Of a stretch of 64,000 bases of DNA, positions 1-42,970 are shown in pieces. The DNA comes from an uncultured Caproiciproducens sp. (lineage in GTDB: Bacteria > Bacillota > Clostridia > Oscillospirales > Acutalibacteraceae), in contig NZ_OY761810.1 of NCBI RefSeq assembly GCF_963664915.1, positions 124,001 through 188,000 on the forward strand. The letters run 5' to 3'. The translations under genes and the position numbers were made by a program. How positions within the stretch are numbered: the first letter of the stretch is position 1; every line of letters starts with the position of its first letter. Under the pieces are notes generated by a model. The model worked only from the letters and a program-made list of their open reading frames with translations. It was not told the DNA's origin and did no database searches.

Positions 1-533
1 ACGATAAAATATAAAATAATGGATAAAGCATAAAATACAAGCCGGCCAACAATTGAATGGGCAAAATAGAATATGCCGCTGCCATAGTAATAAACCATCA
101 TGCAAATAATAAATACGCGCAGAATGTTGGCAGCAAAAATCCATACAACCGCGCCGATGTTGATGCTCAATTTTTCAATCGTGCTATAGACGGGGAAAAA
201 CCAAAGCATAGCGGTAAATGCCATAATTTCAATAATTCCGGAACATTCCAAATCTATGTATAAGGAAATTACGGCCGACCTGGCATTGGGAACAAATAAA
301 ACCCCCAACTGAGTCGAGGCTTCGTATAAATGGGTAGCTTGTCCCAATAGCCCTGAAACATAGGCAACCAATCTCGAAAATGGAATCGTAACAGCAGGGC
401 TAATCCAAATCATCATAAAAATAAAGAACCCTACGCTTCCCCAAACGAAGGTAAAAAAATCCAATCTGGATCGATATCCTACCCTGAGAAAATAGAGCCA
501 TATGACAAAACAAATGATCGATATTGTCATCAT
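1..533 (-). CDS. xrtG: Exosortase family protein XrtG, partial (cut by window edge)
   Basis: Reading the minus strand from the ATG at 531-533 gives 177 open codons running off the left edge. The protein is a multi-pass membrane protein with the exosortase/archaeosortase triad in order: Cys in LECSGIIE, Arg in NILRVF and His in AHSIVGR. These match the family's predicted transpeptidase residues. XrtG is the Gram-positive branch, thought to cut and re-anchor proteins with a Firmicu-CTERM tail. Its start overlaps the stop of the upstream CTERM gene (ATGA), so the two are translationally coupled. Probably only a short C-terminal tail is missing. Direct biochemical proof for this branch is not known to me. 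Confidence 0.9.
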   Translation of the reverse strand, partial: MMTISIICFVIWLYFLRVGYRSRLDFFTFVWGSVGFFIFMMIWISPAVTIPFSRLVAYVSGLLGQATHLYEASTQLGVLFVPNARSAVISLYIDLECSGIIEIMAFTAMLWFFPVYSTIEKLSINIGAVVWIFAANILRVFIICMMVYYYGSGIFYFAHSIVGRLVFYALSIILYFI

Positions 534-1321
534 ACAGTCAGCTTCCCTTTCTTTTTATAAAATAAATATCCAACCCCGGCTATAGCGGCGCAAACGGTAA
601 TCCCGATGTAAGGCGCTGTATCCGTACCGGCACACGCAATGCGCCTGTACATTAAATTGGGTGTAAAAAATTCCAATACCCGGATATTTCCCGGGTCAAT
701 ATTTTGATTTTGTCTTTGAAATTCCGAATAGGGAATTTTCAACTCAAGCTCATCGTTAATGCCGCCCGCATTTCGTTTCAGCATCGCCAGAGAATCTTTT
801 GCAATAGAATTTGAAATGCCCGAGTCACGGTGTCTGACTTCCACCGGATGAAGCCCTGCGCCAAACGAACCGTTCGTTATGGTGCCCCCGCCCGGCAGTA
901 CAACTTGAAATGCGGCCATTTGTCCGTCACACCAAAATTGATAATCATAACCATTCAGGCTGGTGTACCAGTTTTTTGCCATAATAATATGTACATATAC
1001 ATATTTGTCATCTCTGTAAAGTGACATCTTATGACGAATGGTAGTGTTATAGGGTTTTCCGTTTTCATCGGTGATCGTAACTGTTTCATTTTTTTGCGTA
1101 ACCGGATTCCATTGATTTTCGAATATGTAAGGATTGTCCCAATTATATTCATATGAATACGGGACATTTACCCAATCATCAAAAGACCCGTCAATCTGAA
1201 TGACTTGATTACCGGAATCAGCGGGAATACTATGATCGGCAGCCGCAGCGTAAACTGGCGTCAAATTACTCAGAAAAATGAAGGAAATAAAAAACATTAT
1301 CAATACTTTTAATTTTTTCAC
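530..1321 (-). CDS. Secreted protein with Firmicu-CTERM sorting tail
   Basis: The 263-residue protein starts with GTG at 1321, behind a GGAGG site. It has a signal peptide (about residues 1-26, ending near VYAAAA). An extracellular domain opens with IDGSFDDW, a motif common in CBM9/DOMON-like beta-sandwich carbohydrate- or surface-binding domains. The C-terminus has the sorting layout: a short PYIG motif, a hydrophobic segment (ITVCAAIAGVGYLF) and a basic end (YKKKGK). It is the likely substrate of the XrtG exosortase encoded directly downstream with a 4-base overlap. The real ligand of the outer domain is unknown. Confidence 0.85.
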   Translation of the reverse strand: MKKLKVLIMFFISFIFLSNLTPVYAAAADHSIPADSGNQVIQIDGSFDDWVNVPYSYEYNWDNPYIFENQWNPVTQKNETVTITDENGKPYNTTIRHKMSLYRDDKYVYVHIIMAKNWYTSLNGYDYQFWCDGQMAAFQVVLPGGGTITNGSFGAGLHPVEVRHRDSGISNSIAKDSLAMLKRNAGGINDELELKIPYSEFQRQNQNIDPGNIRVLEFFTPNLMYRRIACAGTDTAPYIGITVCAAIAGVGYLFYKKKGKLTV

Positions 1322-1364
1322 TTATAATCCTCCAATTTATTAACACGGATAATCGATCGATTAA

Positions 1365-1742
1365 TTAACATGATAATAATATTTTATCTGAAATCGTAAA
1401 AACTCTGGTTGGAGACTCGCTGATCTCAAGCTTTAGCAAATCGTAATGATTTGTCAAGACGATTGACTGAAGATCGTTATAAAACAAAGTCCCTATATTT
1501 TCTACAGTTGGACTGGAATTTGCGAATGGTACCGTATTGTTTAAATACTTCCCTTTGTATTGTTCCAGATAATCGTCAATAATTTTTTCGATATATTCAT
1601 AACTCGCAAATACATTCCCCTGTTTTTCAAGATAAAGGACTATTTTCAAGGTGTGAAAATGTGCTTGCTGTTCGGATAACGATGTGTTCAAGTTATGAGC
1701 AATGTGGAGCTTAAATGTATATTTATATGCTCTGTAAGCCAT
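1365..1742 (-). CDS. 6-pyruvoyl-tetrahydropterin synthase-related protein of XrtG loci
   Basis: The 125-residue protein starts at an ATG behind GGAGG with short spacing. It keeps the zinc-binding His pattern of PTPS/QueD enzymes: IAHN near residue 15 and HFH near residue 28. It also has a later PTVENIG segment like the PTxEN of PTPS proteins. It lies just upstream of the CTERM gene on the same strand. A PTPS-related protein is a known companion of XrtG (TIGR03112, from memory). No pterin or queuosine pathway genes are nearby, so a role in the sorting system is more likely than cofactor synthesis. Its reaction is unknown. Confidence 0.75.
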   Translation of the reverse strand: MAYRAYKYTFKLHIAHNLNTSLSEQQAHFHTLKIVLYLEKQGNVFASYEYIEKIIDDYLEQYKGKYLNNTVPFANSSPTVENIGTLFYNDLQSIVLTNHYDLLKLEISESPTRVFTISDKILLSC

Positions 1743-1869
1743 ATTACCTCCAGCTTCATTATAAATTCTTTAATATATAAAGATTATATCATTGATTATA
1801 CATGCTTCTATTAAGTTAAACGAATTACCTTAATGTTACAGATTTAATTTCCAAAAGGAGTTGCCAACC

Positions 1870-3498
1870 TTGAACCAACAGCTTGGACCGTCTTTACTCA
1901 AACGAATACAAAGCTATTTATTTGAAAAACCAAATTCTTTGCCGGAATTATTATTTATGATTCTACGGTACTTGTTTCTTTTCACTTTTTTATGGATTTT
2001 CGTAAATATCTGTTTTTTTAACTCCAGCAGTATGTGTTTATTTAACATGCCATTGTCTGTTACAATTGCATGTATTGTTTTAATTATATTGTTCCTGTTA
2101 ATATATCAATTCAAGAAATATGCTCAAACACATTTTGCTTTTTACGGATTTATATCAAAGTTTAATGTATTGATTGCCGTGAGTGGTATATTGATTCTGT
2201 TTATTTTTCAAGTTGTAATGGCACGGGCGATCTACCGCCCAATCGGTTGGGATTGCGGTGCCATTGTTGAATGCGCGGTAAAAGGAGATTTGACATCTCA
2301 GCGTTTCTATTTTTCAACATATCCGAACAATCTGCTGATGTTCTATTTGTTAAAAAATTTGCTGGGTGTTTTTTTCTATTTCGGTGGGACAAATCACTGG
2401 TTGTTTTTATCTATCGTTAATATCTTGTTGGTTGATCTGACAATCTATCTGGTGTTTACTGTCTGTAAAAAACTGTTTGGCCTTGCCTGCGGGTTTACCT
2501 CATATGCATTATTTGTTATGATATTTGGTCTTTCGCCATGGTTGGTTGTACCTTATTCCGATACTTTCGCCATGGTGTTTTCTCCTTTGATTATTTTAAT
2601 GTTTTTAAACTTCCAGAGAACAGGCCGTGTTTTCTGGAAGGGCGTTTACTTGTTTCTGGTTGGATTCTTATCCGTCATCGGCTATTATATCAAACCGTAT
2701 ACTCTGATCGTATTGATTTCGATTTTAATCTATTTATTCGTTCGCAGCATAAACAGCTTAAAAAGATTCGGCTTTTTTGTGTTAGCTTTACTGATCGCTG
2801 TGACAGGCGTATCGGCTTCCTATTTTTTGTACAATGTTACTGTGAAAGATCCCTATTCAAATGTTCTGGATTATTCCCAGTCCCTGCCAATGTCATACTA
2901 TTTTATGATGGGGTTAAATACCGCGGTATCCGGGGGAACCGGTAAAACGCTGTATGGAGCATACAGTGATAAAGACAACTTGTTTGTGTACAGTCTGCCT
3001 ACCCAGCAGACGAAACAGACGGAGACTCTAAAAGAAGCAATGAGGCGAATTCATGCTTACACTCCAACAGGATACGCACGGTTTTTGTCCAACAAAGCCA
3101 ATTGGGTGTTCAGTGACGGAACCTTTTGGGTTGAGGGAGAAGGCTATGATGTAGATGCGCCGAGTGTATCAACTTCGGCCTTCAGTCAATGGGTTCAAAG
3201 TTATTTCCGTTTTTACGGCGCGAATTATTTCAGCTTTGCAACTTTCGCACAGGCGATATGGGTAATCCTGTTGTTCTTACTGATCTGCCCCTTATTTAAT
3301 AACAGCAATGATTTTAAAAAATCATTGGTAAATGTTCTGAGAATAGCAGTTTTAGGGTTCCTGCTTTATCAAATGTTATTTGAAGCTCGTTCCCGCTATA
3401 TTATTGCGGTGCTTCCGGTTATCATCATTTTATCGACAAGTGGATTTTCAAATTTTCATGAAAATTTTTACAGCTATCATGAAAATAACATAAAGTAG
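1870..3498 (+). CDS. Polytopic membrane protein of XrtG loci, possible lipid-linked glycosyltransferase
   Basis: The protein has about 542 residues and many membrane segments. The longest frame begins at a TTG directly touching the AAAAGGAG site, so the TTG at 1870, nine bases away, is the better start. The loop after the third membrane segment holds YRPIGWDCGAIVECA. This has the conserved Tyr/Asp of the integral membrane family that travels with XrtG (TIGR03766, from memory). The fold resembles GT-C glycosyltransferases with an acidic first outer loop. It diverges from the PTPS-CTERM-xrtG operon. A sugar-transfer role on the sorted protein is an inference only. Confidence 0.75.
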   Translation: MNQQLGPSLLKRIQSYLFEKPNSLPELLFMILRYLFLFTFLWIFVNICFFNSSSMCLFNMPLSVTIACIVLIILFLLIYQFKKYAQTHFAFYGFISKFNVLIAVSGILILFIFQVVMARAIYRPIGWDCGAIVECAVKGDLTSQRFYFSTYPNNLLMFYLLKNLLGVFFYFGGTNHWLFLSIVNILLVDLTIYLVFTVCKKLFGLACGFTSYALFVMIFGLSPWLVVPYSDTFAMVFSPLIILMFLNFQRTGRVFWKGVYLFLVGFLSVIGYYIKPYTLIVLISILIYLFVRSINSLKRFGFFVLALLIAVTGVSASYFLYNVTVKDPYSNVLDYSQSLPMSYYFMMGLNTAVSGGTGKTLYGAYSDKDNLFVYSLPTQQTKQTETLKEAMRRIHAYTPTGYARFLSNKANWVFSDGTFWVEGEGYDVDAPSVSTSAFSQWVQSYFRFYGANYFSFATFAQAIWVILLFLLICPLFNNSNDFKKSLVNVLRIAVLGFLLYQMLFEARSRYIIAVLPVIIILSTSGFSNFHENFYSYHENNIK

Positions 3499-3646: not shown

Positions 3647-4531
3647 TTATTTGTTCACTGTTACCCAGCACAATTTATTATTTATAAACCCGGTATTGAT
3701 CATTCCGTTATCATGGAGATACGCAAGATAAGAGCGAACCGTGCTTCCGACAAGGACATATTGGTTAAAGTCCATATTTAAATTGTATCTTTCAAAAACA
3801 GCTTTTAAAATATCATCAAAACTGATTGCATCGACACAAATTTTTTTCAGGTTATCGATAATATCACTTACCTTTTTCAGGTTAGCTTCCACCAAATGCC
3901 CTATATTTTCTGTGGGTTCTGCGTGAGCGGGTATAAACAATCTGCCTTCAAGTGTTTTTACTTTTTCGAGACTTTGTATGTAACTGGCGACATCATAAAG
4001 AAAAGAAATATGGTATTTCTCGATAATATTTTCGCTGGTTAGGCAATCTGCCAAAAACCAAACATCATCACAAGTTTTCAATGCTGTCATAGAAAGGGAA
4101 TGTCCGTTAATAGCTGTCATTTGTAGCCCTTCCGGTAAAACATCTTCCGTCAGTTCCAGCACATCACTGCTTTGTGCAAATAAAAATTTATTGCGAAGTT
4201 CTTTGCAGGGGAATCCTCCATAAAGAAAAGATGGTTCTAATATAGGGTCGTTTATGAAAGCCCGGTCTATTCCGGCAGCATAAATTGAACAGCCTGTCCG
4301 CTGCTGCAATAAATTATTTCCACCAATATGATCTGCGTGTGAGTGAGTGTTAATAATCATTTTTAACACCCAATGATTTGCTTCGAGGATTTTCTGAACT
4401 TTCTTTCCGGCGTCCTTGTCATTGCCACTGTCAATAAGGCAAATATCCGTGTCATTAATTTTAAAAATACCCATTTTAGCAGGACAATTGATATAATATG
4501 TTTTTTCTCCAACTTGCTGTAATTCGTACAT
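3647..4531 (-). CDS. Metallo-beta-lactamase-fold hydrolase
   Basis: The 294-residue cytoplasmic enzyme has the MBL metal motif HSHADHIGG near residue 63, a later metal Asp in WFLADCL and a His in PAHAEP. The C-terminal 80 residues look like a winged-helix cap (VRSYLAYLHDNGMI), as in several MBL hydrolases of glyoxalase-II type. The ATG is preceded by GGAGT with good spacing. It sits just downstream of the broken beta-CASP gene on the same strand and may share its transcript. The substrate cannot be told from the sequence. Confidence 0.8.
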   Translation of the reverse strand: MYELQQVGEKTYYINCPAKMGIFKINDTDICLIDSGNDKDAGKKVQKILEANHWVLKMIINTHSHADHIGGNNLLQQRTGCSIYAAGIDRAFINDPILEPSFLYGGFPCKELRNKFLFAQSSDVLELTEDVLPEGLQMTAINGHSLSMTALKTCDDVWFLADCLTSENIIEKYHISFLYDVASYIQSLEKVKTLEGRLFIPAHAEPTENIGHLVEANLKKVSDIIDNLKKICVDAISFDDILKAVFERYNLNMDFNQYVLVGSTVRSYLAYLHDNGMINTGFINNKLCWVTVNK

Positions 4532-41218: not shown

Positions 41219-42970
41219 TTACACCAGGCAGCAAAAGCTTCCGCTTTGCTGCTTGGTTTTTTTCTTAATCTTTGCTAATTCTTCCGTAAGATCCAACATG
41301 TTGGCAAAACTGCGGGTCCTGTTGCTTACCCCCGCGATGGAAAGGGAAATCAGCGGAAATTTTTCGATCTCCCCCCGCCTGTTCTCCGCAATGATATATC
41401 CGTTCTGTATGTCCCTCGGGTTATAATACTGCAGTACGTTCCTGTCAAAGTCATGAATAATATCGATGCACAAATCAACGCCGCTGAAATTGTCCAGCAC
41501 GGCCACAAAATCGTCTCCTCCCACATGGCCGGCAAATTGTTTTTCCGGCACATGGGTTACAATGGTTCTTGCGAGCAATTTAATAATGGAATCCCCGTTT
41601 TCAAAGCCGTAAACATCGTTGTACGCTTTAAAATTATCAATGTCAAAATAGATTACACTGTATGGGGTGTCCTTTTCGATACAGGCTTTAATCTTCTGCT
41701 CAATCACCAGATTCCCCGGAAGGCCGGTAAGGGGATTCTGATATTTCGCGTTCGTCACTTCAATTTCCGTTGTTTTTTCCAGAAGATCTTTGATCGTAAC
41801 GGTACCCACATATTTTTCATCCCTGGTCACGACAATAAAGTCATACAGCTTTTCCGGCGGACGGGACATTGCAATATGCGAAACGGCGTTGATCGGGGTT
41901 TGATAATTGACCGCAAGAAACTGCCTGTCCATCAGAAAGGAAATCGGCTTGTTCTGATTCAGGCTGAATCCGTACCGGCCGCTGAGCTTTAAAACCAAAT
42001 TTGCTTTTGTTACCACGCCCAGCACCATACCGTTTTCCACAACACACATGCCAAAGGCGGAAGGGTCATTTTTCAGCTTGTCGAAAACATCCTCCACCTT
42101 TGCCGTGGACGAAATCGTTTCTGTCGGCGTGCAGATATTTTCTATGTAGATATTGCTGACCTGGCTGCCAAGTACATGATTTTTTTTACGGTTCACCTCA
42201 TCCATGATTTCAAGCACATCGGGCTCAACCTCTTTCATTTGCTCGGCTGGCCTTTGGAGGAAATAACCCTGCGCATACTGCACACCCAGTTCAATCAGGG
42301 TAACCAATTCCTCCTTTGTCTCCACTCCTTCGGCAATCAGGCCGATGTTGGCCACATGGGAAAGTTCAATCATGCTTTTTACAAGGGCAAACTTAATGCT
42401 GTCCTTGTCGATATTGCGGATTAACTTCATATCAAGTTTAATATAATGCGGGTTAATATCGCTGATGAGGTTAAGTCCCGAGTATCCCGCGCCTGCGTCG
42501 TCAATAGCAATTTTATAATTCTGACCTTTATAATGCGCAACCGCGCCCTGAAAACCAGCCATATCAGAAGCCGCGTTTCGCTCTGTGATTTCGAAAATAA
42601 TATTTTCCGGCACGGCACCGTAATTTTTCAAATATTCCTTTGTAAATCCCTGCCTGAATTTTAAGTCGTGCATCACATCCGGATTCACATTAAGAAATAG
42701 CTTCTTGTCCAATAAACATCCTGTTTTCAGGTAAGCGGACTGCAGCGCCGTCGTTCGGCAAAGCAGTTCCAAATCCCACAGCCGGCTGCTTTCACCGGCA
42801 ATTTGGAATAACTCCTCCGGATTTGCAATGGCGCTTTCACAGGTAATTCGGCTTAACGCCTCATAGCCTATCACCGAGCCGTCGCGCAGCGACACAATCG
42901 GCTGAAATACGGTTTTAATATATTTTCCATCGATAATTTTATCCAGTTCACATTTCATTTTCTCATCCAT
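41219..42970 (-). CDS. EAL-CBS-GGDEF protein of cyclic di-GMP turnover
   Basis: The 583-residue cytoplasmic protein has an EAL phosphodiesterase domain (1-245) with the metal and catalytic motifs intact: YEALSR, NVNPD, EITER, IDDAGAGYSG, KLDMKLI and AEGVET. A pair of CBS domains (about 270-390) may sense adenine nucleotides. A GGDEF domain (405-570) has GGDDF instead of GGDEF, so cyclase activity is doubtful, and it may bind GTP as a regulator. The protein most likely degrades cyclic di-GMP. Confidence 0.93.
   Translation of the reverse strand: MDEKMKCELDKIIDGKYIKTVFQPIVSLRDGSVIGYEALSRITCESAIANPEELFQIAGESSRLWDLELLCRTTALQSAYLKTGCLLDKKLFLNVNPDVMHDLKFRQGFTKEYLKNYGAVPENIIFEITERNAASDMAGFQGAVAHYKGQNYKIAIDDAGAGYSGLNLISDINPHYIKLDMKLIRNIDKDSIKFALVKSMIELSHVANIGLIAEGVETKEELVTLIELGVQYAQGYFLQRPAEQMKEVEPDVLEIMDEVNRKKNHVLGSQVSNIYIENICTPTETISSTAKVEDVFDKLKNDPSAFGMCVVENGMVLGVVTKANLVLKLSGRYGFSLNQNKPISFLMDRQFLAVNYQTPINAVSHIAMSRPPEKLYDFIVVTRDEKYVGTVTIKDLLEKTTEIEVTNAKYQNPLTGLPGNLVIEQKIKACIEKDTPYSVIYFDIDNFKAYNDVYGFENGDSIIKLLARTIVTHVPEKQFAGHVGGDDFVAVLDNFSGVDLCIDIIHDFDRNVLQYYNPRDIQNGYIIAENRRGEIEKFPLISLSIAGVSNRTRSFANMLDLTEELAKIKKKTKQQSGSFCCLV

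Follow-up and report, generated by a model that had tools for sequence, protein, structure and literature searches.

What does an exosortase do when it is encoded beside a single candidate substrate and a set of sugar-polymer enzymes? The question is raised by the left edge of the 64,000-nucleotide stretch analysed here (the window, C1:124001-188000, where C1 is contig NZ_OY761810.1, the single contig of a 3.13 Mb genome of an uncultured Caproiciproducens sp.), which cuts through a gene of the XrtG exosortase family. A sequence-only reading had described this edge as a protein-sorting locus forming a surface-anchoring system. We observed a real and compact cluster that joins a membrane sorting enzyme, one partner protein and sugar-polymer enzymes. 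Our best reading, to which we give about an even chance, is that the locus encodes a glycan-synthase complex in which XrtG processes an extracellular subunit and non-catalytic PTPS subunits sense a ligand. Surface anchoring of the wall type, although the conventional role, is not the best-supported one.

The xrtG gene is whole on the contig and the window edge is its sole cut. It spans C1:123937-124533 on the minus strand (window 1-533, open frame 3-533), encodes 198 amino acids, 177 of which lie inside the window, and extends past base 1 to the left by 64 bases. The proposal that the edge frame encodes XrtG held up, with 168 bits against TIGR03110 for the cut frame and 190 bits for the complete one (cut-off 102.75). 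Cys97 (window 243-245), Arg139 (117-119) and His159 (57-59, all on the minus strand) are invariant across a 9-sequence alignment, and we take these positions to be the exosortase catalytic sites; neither a missing family match nor a loss of sites, the two outcomes named beforehand as refuting the claim, was found. The XrtG profile returned zero matches against the PDB at E 10. The end of XrtG and a glycosyltransferase had been suspected left of base 1, and both are there: the latter is a family 2 glycosyltransferase (GT2) synthase (C1:122559-123953, minus strand, outside the window; TIGR03111 645 bits, cut-off 364), followed by a first PTPS-related gene, PTPS1 (C1:122089-122562, minus strand, outside the window; TIGR03112 154 bits, cut-off 69). 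On the other side of xrtG, the labels given to the Firmicu-CTERM protein (263 amino acids; window 530-1321, minus strand; TIGR04145 85 bits, cut-off 50) and to PTPS2, a 125-residue T-fold protein and the upstream paralogue (window 1365-1742, minus strand; TIGR03112 94 bits, cut-off 69), were borne out. The earlier inventory was thus right in its family labels and incomplete in content, lacking the GT2 gene and the second PTPS gene that lie outside the window. The minus-strand transcription order is PTPS2, CTERM, XrtG, GT2, PTPS1, with spacings of 43, -4, -17 and -4 bp (the CTERM frame and xrtG share 4 bp). Because the five genes are co-directional and so tightly packed, we infer that they fit a single transcription unit.

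According to the best reading, the locus would encode a glycan synthase that forms a complex in the membrane and has an exosortase of its own. The GT2, which is PgaC/BcsA-like and carries a QxxRW motif, would make a polysaccharide of as yet conjectural chemistry, to which a GT-C-like membrane protein would add. The CTERM protein, possibly a beta-sandwich that binds glycan, would serve as the extracytoplasmic subunit. XrtG (Cys97/His159/Arg139) would cut this protein at or near a GTDTAP motif ahead of its last transmembrane (TM) segment and move it to a putative membrane acceptor, nascent glycan or lipid carrier, and the CTERM protein would stay with the synthase. Both PTPS proteins would be ligand-binding T-folds rather than QueD-like catalysts and would regulate the synthase from the cytosol.

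We compared the window locus with the 80 best of 220 named loci, which were fetched by the pattern [IV][DG]xECSG[LI][LI]E and whose genes were found with our own iterated hidden Markov models (HMMs). The closest XrtG enzymes among them, at 80 and 78% identity, belong to two genomes of Caproiciproducens galactitolivorans; the earlier description of the host as a cellulolytic-type clostridium was not established. L020 duplicates L082, and we left it out when counting PTPS residues, CTERM tails, locus genes, QxxRW motifs and fusions or lengths. On the glycan side, the GT2 scores 120 bits against the next family, PgaC/IcaA (cut-off 422). QxxRW, the motif of processive GT2 enzymes, is present in all 85 GT2 proteins above 500 bits, that of the window locus (QRQRW) included. 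Eight GT2 proteins exceed 940 amino acids (L047, L055, L084, L094, L098, L100, L101 and L106), and both of the long ones that were scanned, L047 and L055, carry a C-terminal Sulfatase domain (PF00884). The PF00884 superfamily includes phosphoglycerol and phosphoethanolamine transferases, and a GT2 with such a domain would fit a modified glycan.

Next, we considered the partner protein. It consists of an N-terminal signal or TM segment, a mostly-beta domain with the motif IDGSFDDW, a C-terminal TM segment and a basic tail. An AlphaFold model (predicted local distance difference test score, pLDDT, 80) shows the mostly-beta domain flanked by two TM helices. The tail consists of GTDTAP (residues 232-237; window 611-628, minus strand), which stands directly before the last TM segment, a helix at residues 236-258 and the cluster KKKGK. 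A pattern G-x-[SPD]-[TS]-x-[PAT] fits all 77 tails (75 scripted, 2 by eye), although this and our other motif patterns were derived from the same sequences in which they were then counted. The GTDTAP area is the likely region of XrtG processing.

This tripartite tail (motif, TM segment and basic cluster) together with the N-terminal signal or TM segment, and the Cys/Arg/His triad of XrtG, also speaks for conventional sorting. There, XrtG would take off the CTERM tail and pass the protein on to the cell surface or wall, as a sortase does with LPXTG proteins, and the glycosyltransferases would just build the anchor or decorate that protein. Such a model has been published for EpsH and PEP-CTERM proteins in Gram-negatives (PMC1569441), and in some L. 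plantarum strains transcripts of the XrtG system and of cell-wall genes were raised together, according to the accessible part of PMC12854382. We regard sorting as a serious possibility, though on the unlikely side. XrtG is the single enzyme of its kind that the TIGR03110 search found in this genome, and only one CTERM protein was found to go with it. TIGR04145 hit one protein, a second match being the N-terminal part of the same protein. We also looked for other proteins with this tail: a profile built from 26 CTERM tails gave six matches in the genome, the known tail at E 1.5e-17 and the next at E 0.41, and none of the further ones was convincing. Sorting also leaves the PTPS genes, and the sensor gene found in relatives, unexplained.

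The distribution of the CTERM domain in relatives argues further against sorting. We observed three arrangements. In the first, as in the window, the protein stands alone. In the second (L021, L025 and L026), a protein of 1287-1300 amino acids, with a PTPS at its N-end, a PF10131 domain and a C-terminal DGEFxDW domain with TM segment and basic tail, directly precedes an XrtG with an active Cys; these domains were assigned by Pfam for L021 and L025 and by our own HMM for L026. In the third, a CTERM-like domain stands ahead of the XrtG membrane part in one protein of ~400 amino acids. These last fusions come mostly from genomes of the class of G112, with G173 outside that class. Their N-terminal 200 residues match the C-ends of the second arrangement at 74-91 bits (four of four tested, in a six-sequence set), and the fusion point lies, by eye, at a PxP motif ahead of the CTERM TM segment. 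Profile-profile comparison of 13 CTERM-like domains with 59 Firmicu-CTERM proteins gave a probability of 97.7 (E 1.7e-12) along the domain length, compared with 0.8 for the sensor and 0.1 for PTPS as controls. By this comparison, the domains of the fused relatives are remote Firmicu-CTERM homologues.

Conservation of the catalytic Cys in the 80 named loci is uninformative because the fetching pattern includes it; the Cys was therefore scored only in the 25 loci, from 24 genomes, that TIGR03110 had picked out. Ten of these carry the third arrangement (L009, L010/L022, L012, L013/L024, L134, L138, L139, L140, L141 and L142), and in all ten the catalytic Cys is replaced, nine times by Asn and once by Ser, whereas all 15 other loci keep it. 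L138 and L142 were missed by the motif pattern and recognised via BLAST; L141 ends at the contig end with its His out of view, and the PTPS-PF10131 frame of L024 lies in two pieces, which we did not join. Among six Cys-bearing XrtG loci in the class of G112, a separate CTERM-like frame adjoins in three (L023, L132 and L137), and in the short stretch covered none was recognised in the other three. Nor did the motif pattern find a CTERM-like domain in L027 and L028, although these loci are long. Both kinds of fusion would keep the CTERM domain in the membrane, on polytopic proteins or on a Cys-less XrtG, where sorting cannot move it. This suggests that the partner remains at the membrane and belongs to a machine that makes a sugar polymer. 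In the window locus, XrtG, with its Cys intact and the CTERM protein separate, probably processes that protein and leaves it with the complex. Since a single substrate was found for each enzyme and two kinds of fusion would hold the domain in the membrane, a synthase subunit fits these data better than sorting. A search of open-access papers found none that joins exosortase, catalytic cysteine and fusion.

We then asked what the two PTPS genes contribute. Genes of this type are labelled '6-carboxytetrahydropterin synthase' in RefSeq, and Pfam matches the PTPS family at E 1e-17; they could be working pterin or queuosine enzymes that are mere neighbours of the sorting genes. We consider this highly improbable. 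The two proteins score 34 and 24 bits against the QueD model, far under its cut-off of 89. Zinc-binding His residues, an anchoring Glu, a Cys and an Asp-His pair are the functional landmarks of QueD and PTPS. PTPS2 keeps the His triad and the Glu and lacks the QueD catalytic residues. Across 122 PTPS domains, the triad is kept in 120 and the Glu in 116, in agreement with T-fold family membership, whereas none has a Cys within 8 residues before HxH and none has the Asp-His pair, both window-locus copies included. E. coli QueD, aligned in the same way as a control on these landmarks, has both. In the genome, PF01242 matches these two genes and no others. QueC gave one marginal partial match (24.8 against 22 bits, profile 2-65), and of 59 genomes sampled from the order none had QueD at E 1e-20. 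Moreover, a PF10131-type membrane domain is fused to PTPS in 8 of 122 PTPS proteins, and in 7 of 67 sensor-type proteins (L033, L048, L050, L056, L057, L082 and L107) PTPS1 is fused to the TM part of the sensor, with the sensor's GGDEF part missing. Because PTPS1 takes the place of that part, it occupies the position of a signalling output. Upstream and downstream PTPS domains (50 and 72) are split by one branch of the tree, with one window-locus copy on each side; its support is 91/42 and it recurs in 92% of 200 bootstrap trees, on just 118 columns.

The sensor is a protein of ~360 amino acids between GT2 and PTPS1 in most clostridial loci, built of a TM segment, an outside domain, a second TM segment, a coil and a C-terminal domain. 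The typical clostridial order is [PTPS2]-CTERM-XrtG-GT2-sensor-PTPS1, plus a PF10131 membrane protein. We tallied the 51 named loci flanked by 6 kb or more on each side, a set that does not include G000, and counted PTPS1-fused sensors as sensors: the downstream PTPS is present in 51, CTERM in 50, GT2 in 50, the sensor in 48, a PF10131-type protein in 48 and the upstream PTPS in 35. We modelled the sensor of L036, chosen as closest-looking to GGDEF by eye, and obtained a pLDDT of 85 and 94 Foldseek matches at E <=0.001. The 50 rows listed are of diguanylate-cyclase or GGDEF type, for example 3hva (TMt 0.70, E 7e-8); for some rows, such as DosP, PA3702 and ImcA, the type is not stated in the title. 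The model supports a GGDEF fold for this one sensor and, by extension, a similar fold may be expected in the rest, most of the other aligned sensors being 11-19% identical. A [GS]G[DE]EF motif occurs in none of 59 sensor proteins, and a sequence search of sensors against the PDB gave no GGDEF among 19 matches; it was the model, with its Foldseek matches, that led to this assignment.

A further-reaching version of the best reading would be a nucleotide-gated glycan synthase rather than a protein-sorting system. The exosortase would covalently install the extracellular subunit of the machine itself, the PTPS T-folds would be receptors of a guanine nucleotide such as cyclic di-GMP (c-di-GMP), and the Cys would be dispensable and lost where enzyme and substrate are fused. 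We put this forward tentatively and consider it unlikely. The best reading itself draws support from the XrtG operon of the Lactococcus lactis plasmid pBV60 (L118 4413-10691), which starts with GGDEF (130 bits) and EAL (61 bits) genes, followed by CTERM-XrtG-GT2-PTPS-TIGR03766; one of three examined plasmid loci has them, and in those of Lachnospira eligens and Aneurinibacillus no gene near XrtG is annotated as either. pBV60 was typed as conjugative. The genome of the window has 10 GGDEF matches, none within the XrtG locus. At window 41483-41734 (C1:165483-165734, minus strand), inside an open frame of 607 residues, part of the GGDEF profile (positions 5-92) is matched at 60 bits. The gtsA-gtsB-pdeB operon of Lactobacillus acidophilus offers a parallel: as described in the accessible part of PMC6123363, it has a BcsA-like GT2 beside a degenerate EAL receptor tied to exopolysaccharide, and GtsA and GtsB raised exopolysaccharide and biofilm in E. 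coli. XrtG loci with a sensor would be alike in having a BcsA/PgaC-like GT2 beside a degenerate c-di-GMP-domain protein. They differ in that the accessible part of that paper mentions no exosortase and its main text has no 'tetrahydropterin', and in that dinucleotide binding in XrtG loci is conjectural.

Several results count against the synthase-subunit account. Regarding the CTERM ectodomain, Foldseek gave nothing at E 0.001. The top 12 entries included five of CBM9/DOMON type at E 0.03-0.19 and low TM-score, amid unrelated proteins: 4jpq (a putative carbohydrate-binding protein, two chains), 2ivf, and CBM9 entries 7nwo, 7nwn and 1i82. The 2ivf entry is the C chain of ethylbenzene dehydrogenase, which we take to be of DOMON type. 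A CBM9/DOMON-like fold is thus weakly suggested, as a lead only. Pfam found no CBM family in 59 CTERM members, and each family that it did match occurred in at most 5 of them. The LPXTG anchor model matches 5 of the 59 weakly (best E 0.0094), a point in favour of sorting. In active-Cys loci, the CTERM protein may be released following cleavage. The fused XrtG enzymes (families f47, f91 and f99) form one clade with support 93/91, so the loss of Cys was probably one event, not ten. Ten CTERM-like domains from the same clades (seven from fusions and three stand-alone) were scanned with TIGR04145: nine match at 12-22 bits (best 21.8; E 0.00014-0.16), below the cut-off of 50, and the tenth gave no match; BLAST of such domains against the CTERM protein of the window was not significant. 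As for regulation, Pfam detects GGDEF by sequence in 2 of 30 sensors and not in that of L. eligens, and no c-di-GMP riboswitch reached the Rfam gathering score in 15 loci. Finally, the window locus has neither a PF10131 gene nor, looking at the locus itself, a sensor; the regulatory part of the account therefore rests on relatives.

The absence of both genes raises the question of whether the locus is in decay, having lost the sensor and the PF10131 gene and being left with a functionless remainder. Both are missing together only in the Caproiciproducens loci L029 and L030 (the same as L018 and L019) and in L049, which looks frameshifted, among the 51 loci tallied. TIGR03110 was found in 3 of 98 relative genomes (own included), all among the 11 of the genus, and in none of the 87 outside it. 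Despite these points in its favour, we consider decay very unlikely. The five operon frames and the GT-C-like gene are intact, with 57-81% identity and the same order in two other genomes, the catalytic motifs are retained, and the reduced set is common to three genomes, as a stable variant would be. Because the window locus has the gene set of Caproiciproducens, the genus appears to carry a reduced variant, one that includes a protein resembling TIGR03766. This is the GT-C-like polytopic membrane protein of 545 amino acids encoded divergently to the operon (window 1861-3498, plus strand). Its assignment to TIGR03766 stands in part: that family is its best model (186 bits, E 1e-54), and with a cut-off of 500 the protein is a distant relative and a non-member. 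A hydropathy script marks 11 hydrophobic segments in it, and its start is probably, by eye, the TTG at 1870 behind AAAAGGAG. Orthologues with 62-64% identity occur in L018 and L019 (C. galactitolivorans), and it is the sole TIGR03766 match of the genome, in which the best PF10131 match is 15.6 bits (cut-off 26.4).

In a sample of 398 genomes from across the phylum, the window's own among them, TIGR03110 was found in 12 (9 over the cut-off), and in the G112 class it was found in 14 of 63 genomes (13 over the cut-off). In one of the 25 loci scored for the Cys, L017, XrtG and GT2 share one 482-residue frame with parts missing. XrtG loci also occur on contigs binned to other phyla, L105 (an Alistipes metagenome-assembled genome, MAG) and L042 (an Anaerolineaceae MAG), by transfer or mis-binning.

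The window locus resembles the NCBIfam XrtG system of L. eligens and pBV60 in that XrtG, CTERM, GT2 and PTPS all score over the cut-off in the order CTERM-XrtG-GT2. The RefSeq order on the L. eligens plasmid is CTERM, xrtG, TIGR03111, hypothetical, 6-carboxytetrahydropterin synthase and PTPS-related protein. The window locus differs in its far-below-cut-off, divergently placed TIGR03766-like protein, in having two PTPS genes where pBV60 shows one, and, compared with typical clostridial loci, in lacking the sensor and PF10131 genes. Relative to EpsH/PEP-CTERM, as presented in the accessible part of PMC1569441, it shares a C-terminal motif-TM signal, a membrane enzyme with a sortase-like triad and a link to exopolysaccharide genes. 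XrtG differs in having one found substrate instead of many, a single-membrane cell, PTPS partners, and relatives that fuse the substrate domain to the enzyme. An 'exosortase G system-associated' glycosyltransferase (GT2) appears in a table of PMC8951740, as seen in its accessible part, and open-access papers searched for exosortase, Firmicutes and 6-pyruvoyl tetrahydropterin yielded none that joins them; exosortase paired with tetrahydropterin brought up a single cyanobacterial paper, on zinc. PMC13297897, on L. plantarum and GMP, has no exosortase in its accessible part and was not used.

Two other genes adjoin the locus. Next left of PTPS1 is a plus-strand rsmH-like gene (L002 9895-10959; TIGR00006 219 bits), and on the other side lies a metallo-beta-lactamase-fold hydrolase (window 3647-4531, minus strand; PF00753 53 bits), for which none of 25 listed NCBIfam families scored over its cut-off.

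In the open-access literature searched, where a single paper mentions exosortase together with XrtG, the mechanism and products of Gram-positive exosortases look little studied. The best reading predicts that a Cys-less, substrate-fused exosortase does without transpeptidation, that the mature CTERM protein stays with the membrane or glycan, and that PTPS proteins lacking the catalytic residues bind a ligand and control the GT2. If it is right, these genes would be misannotated as '6-carboxytetrahydropterin synthase', and it would explain how many anaerobes make and control a surface polymer, together with a new use of the PTPS fold.

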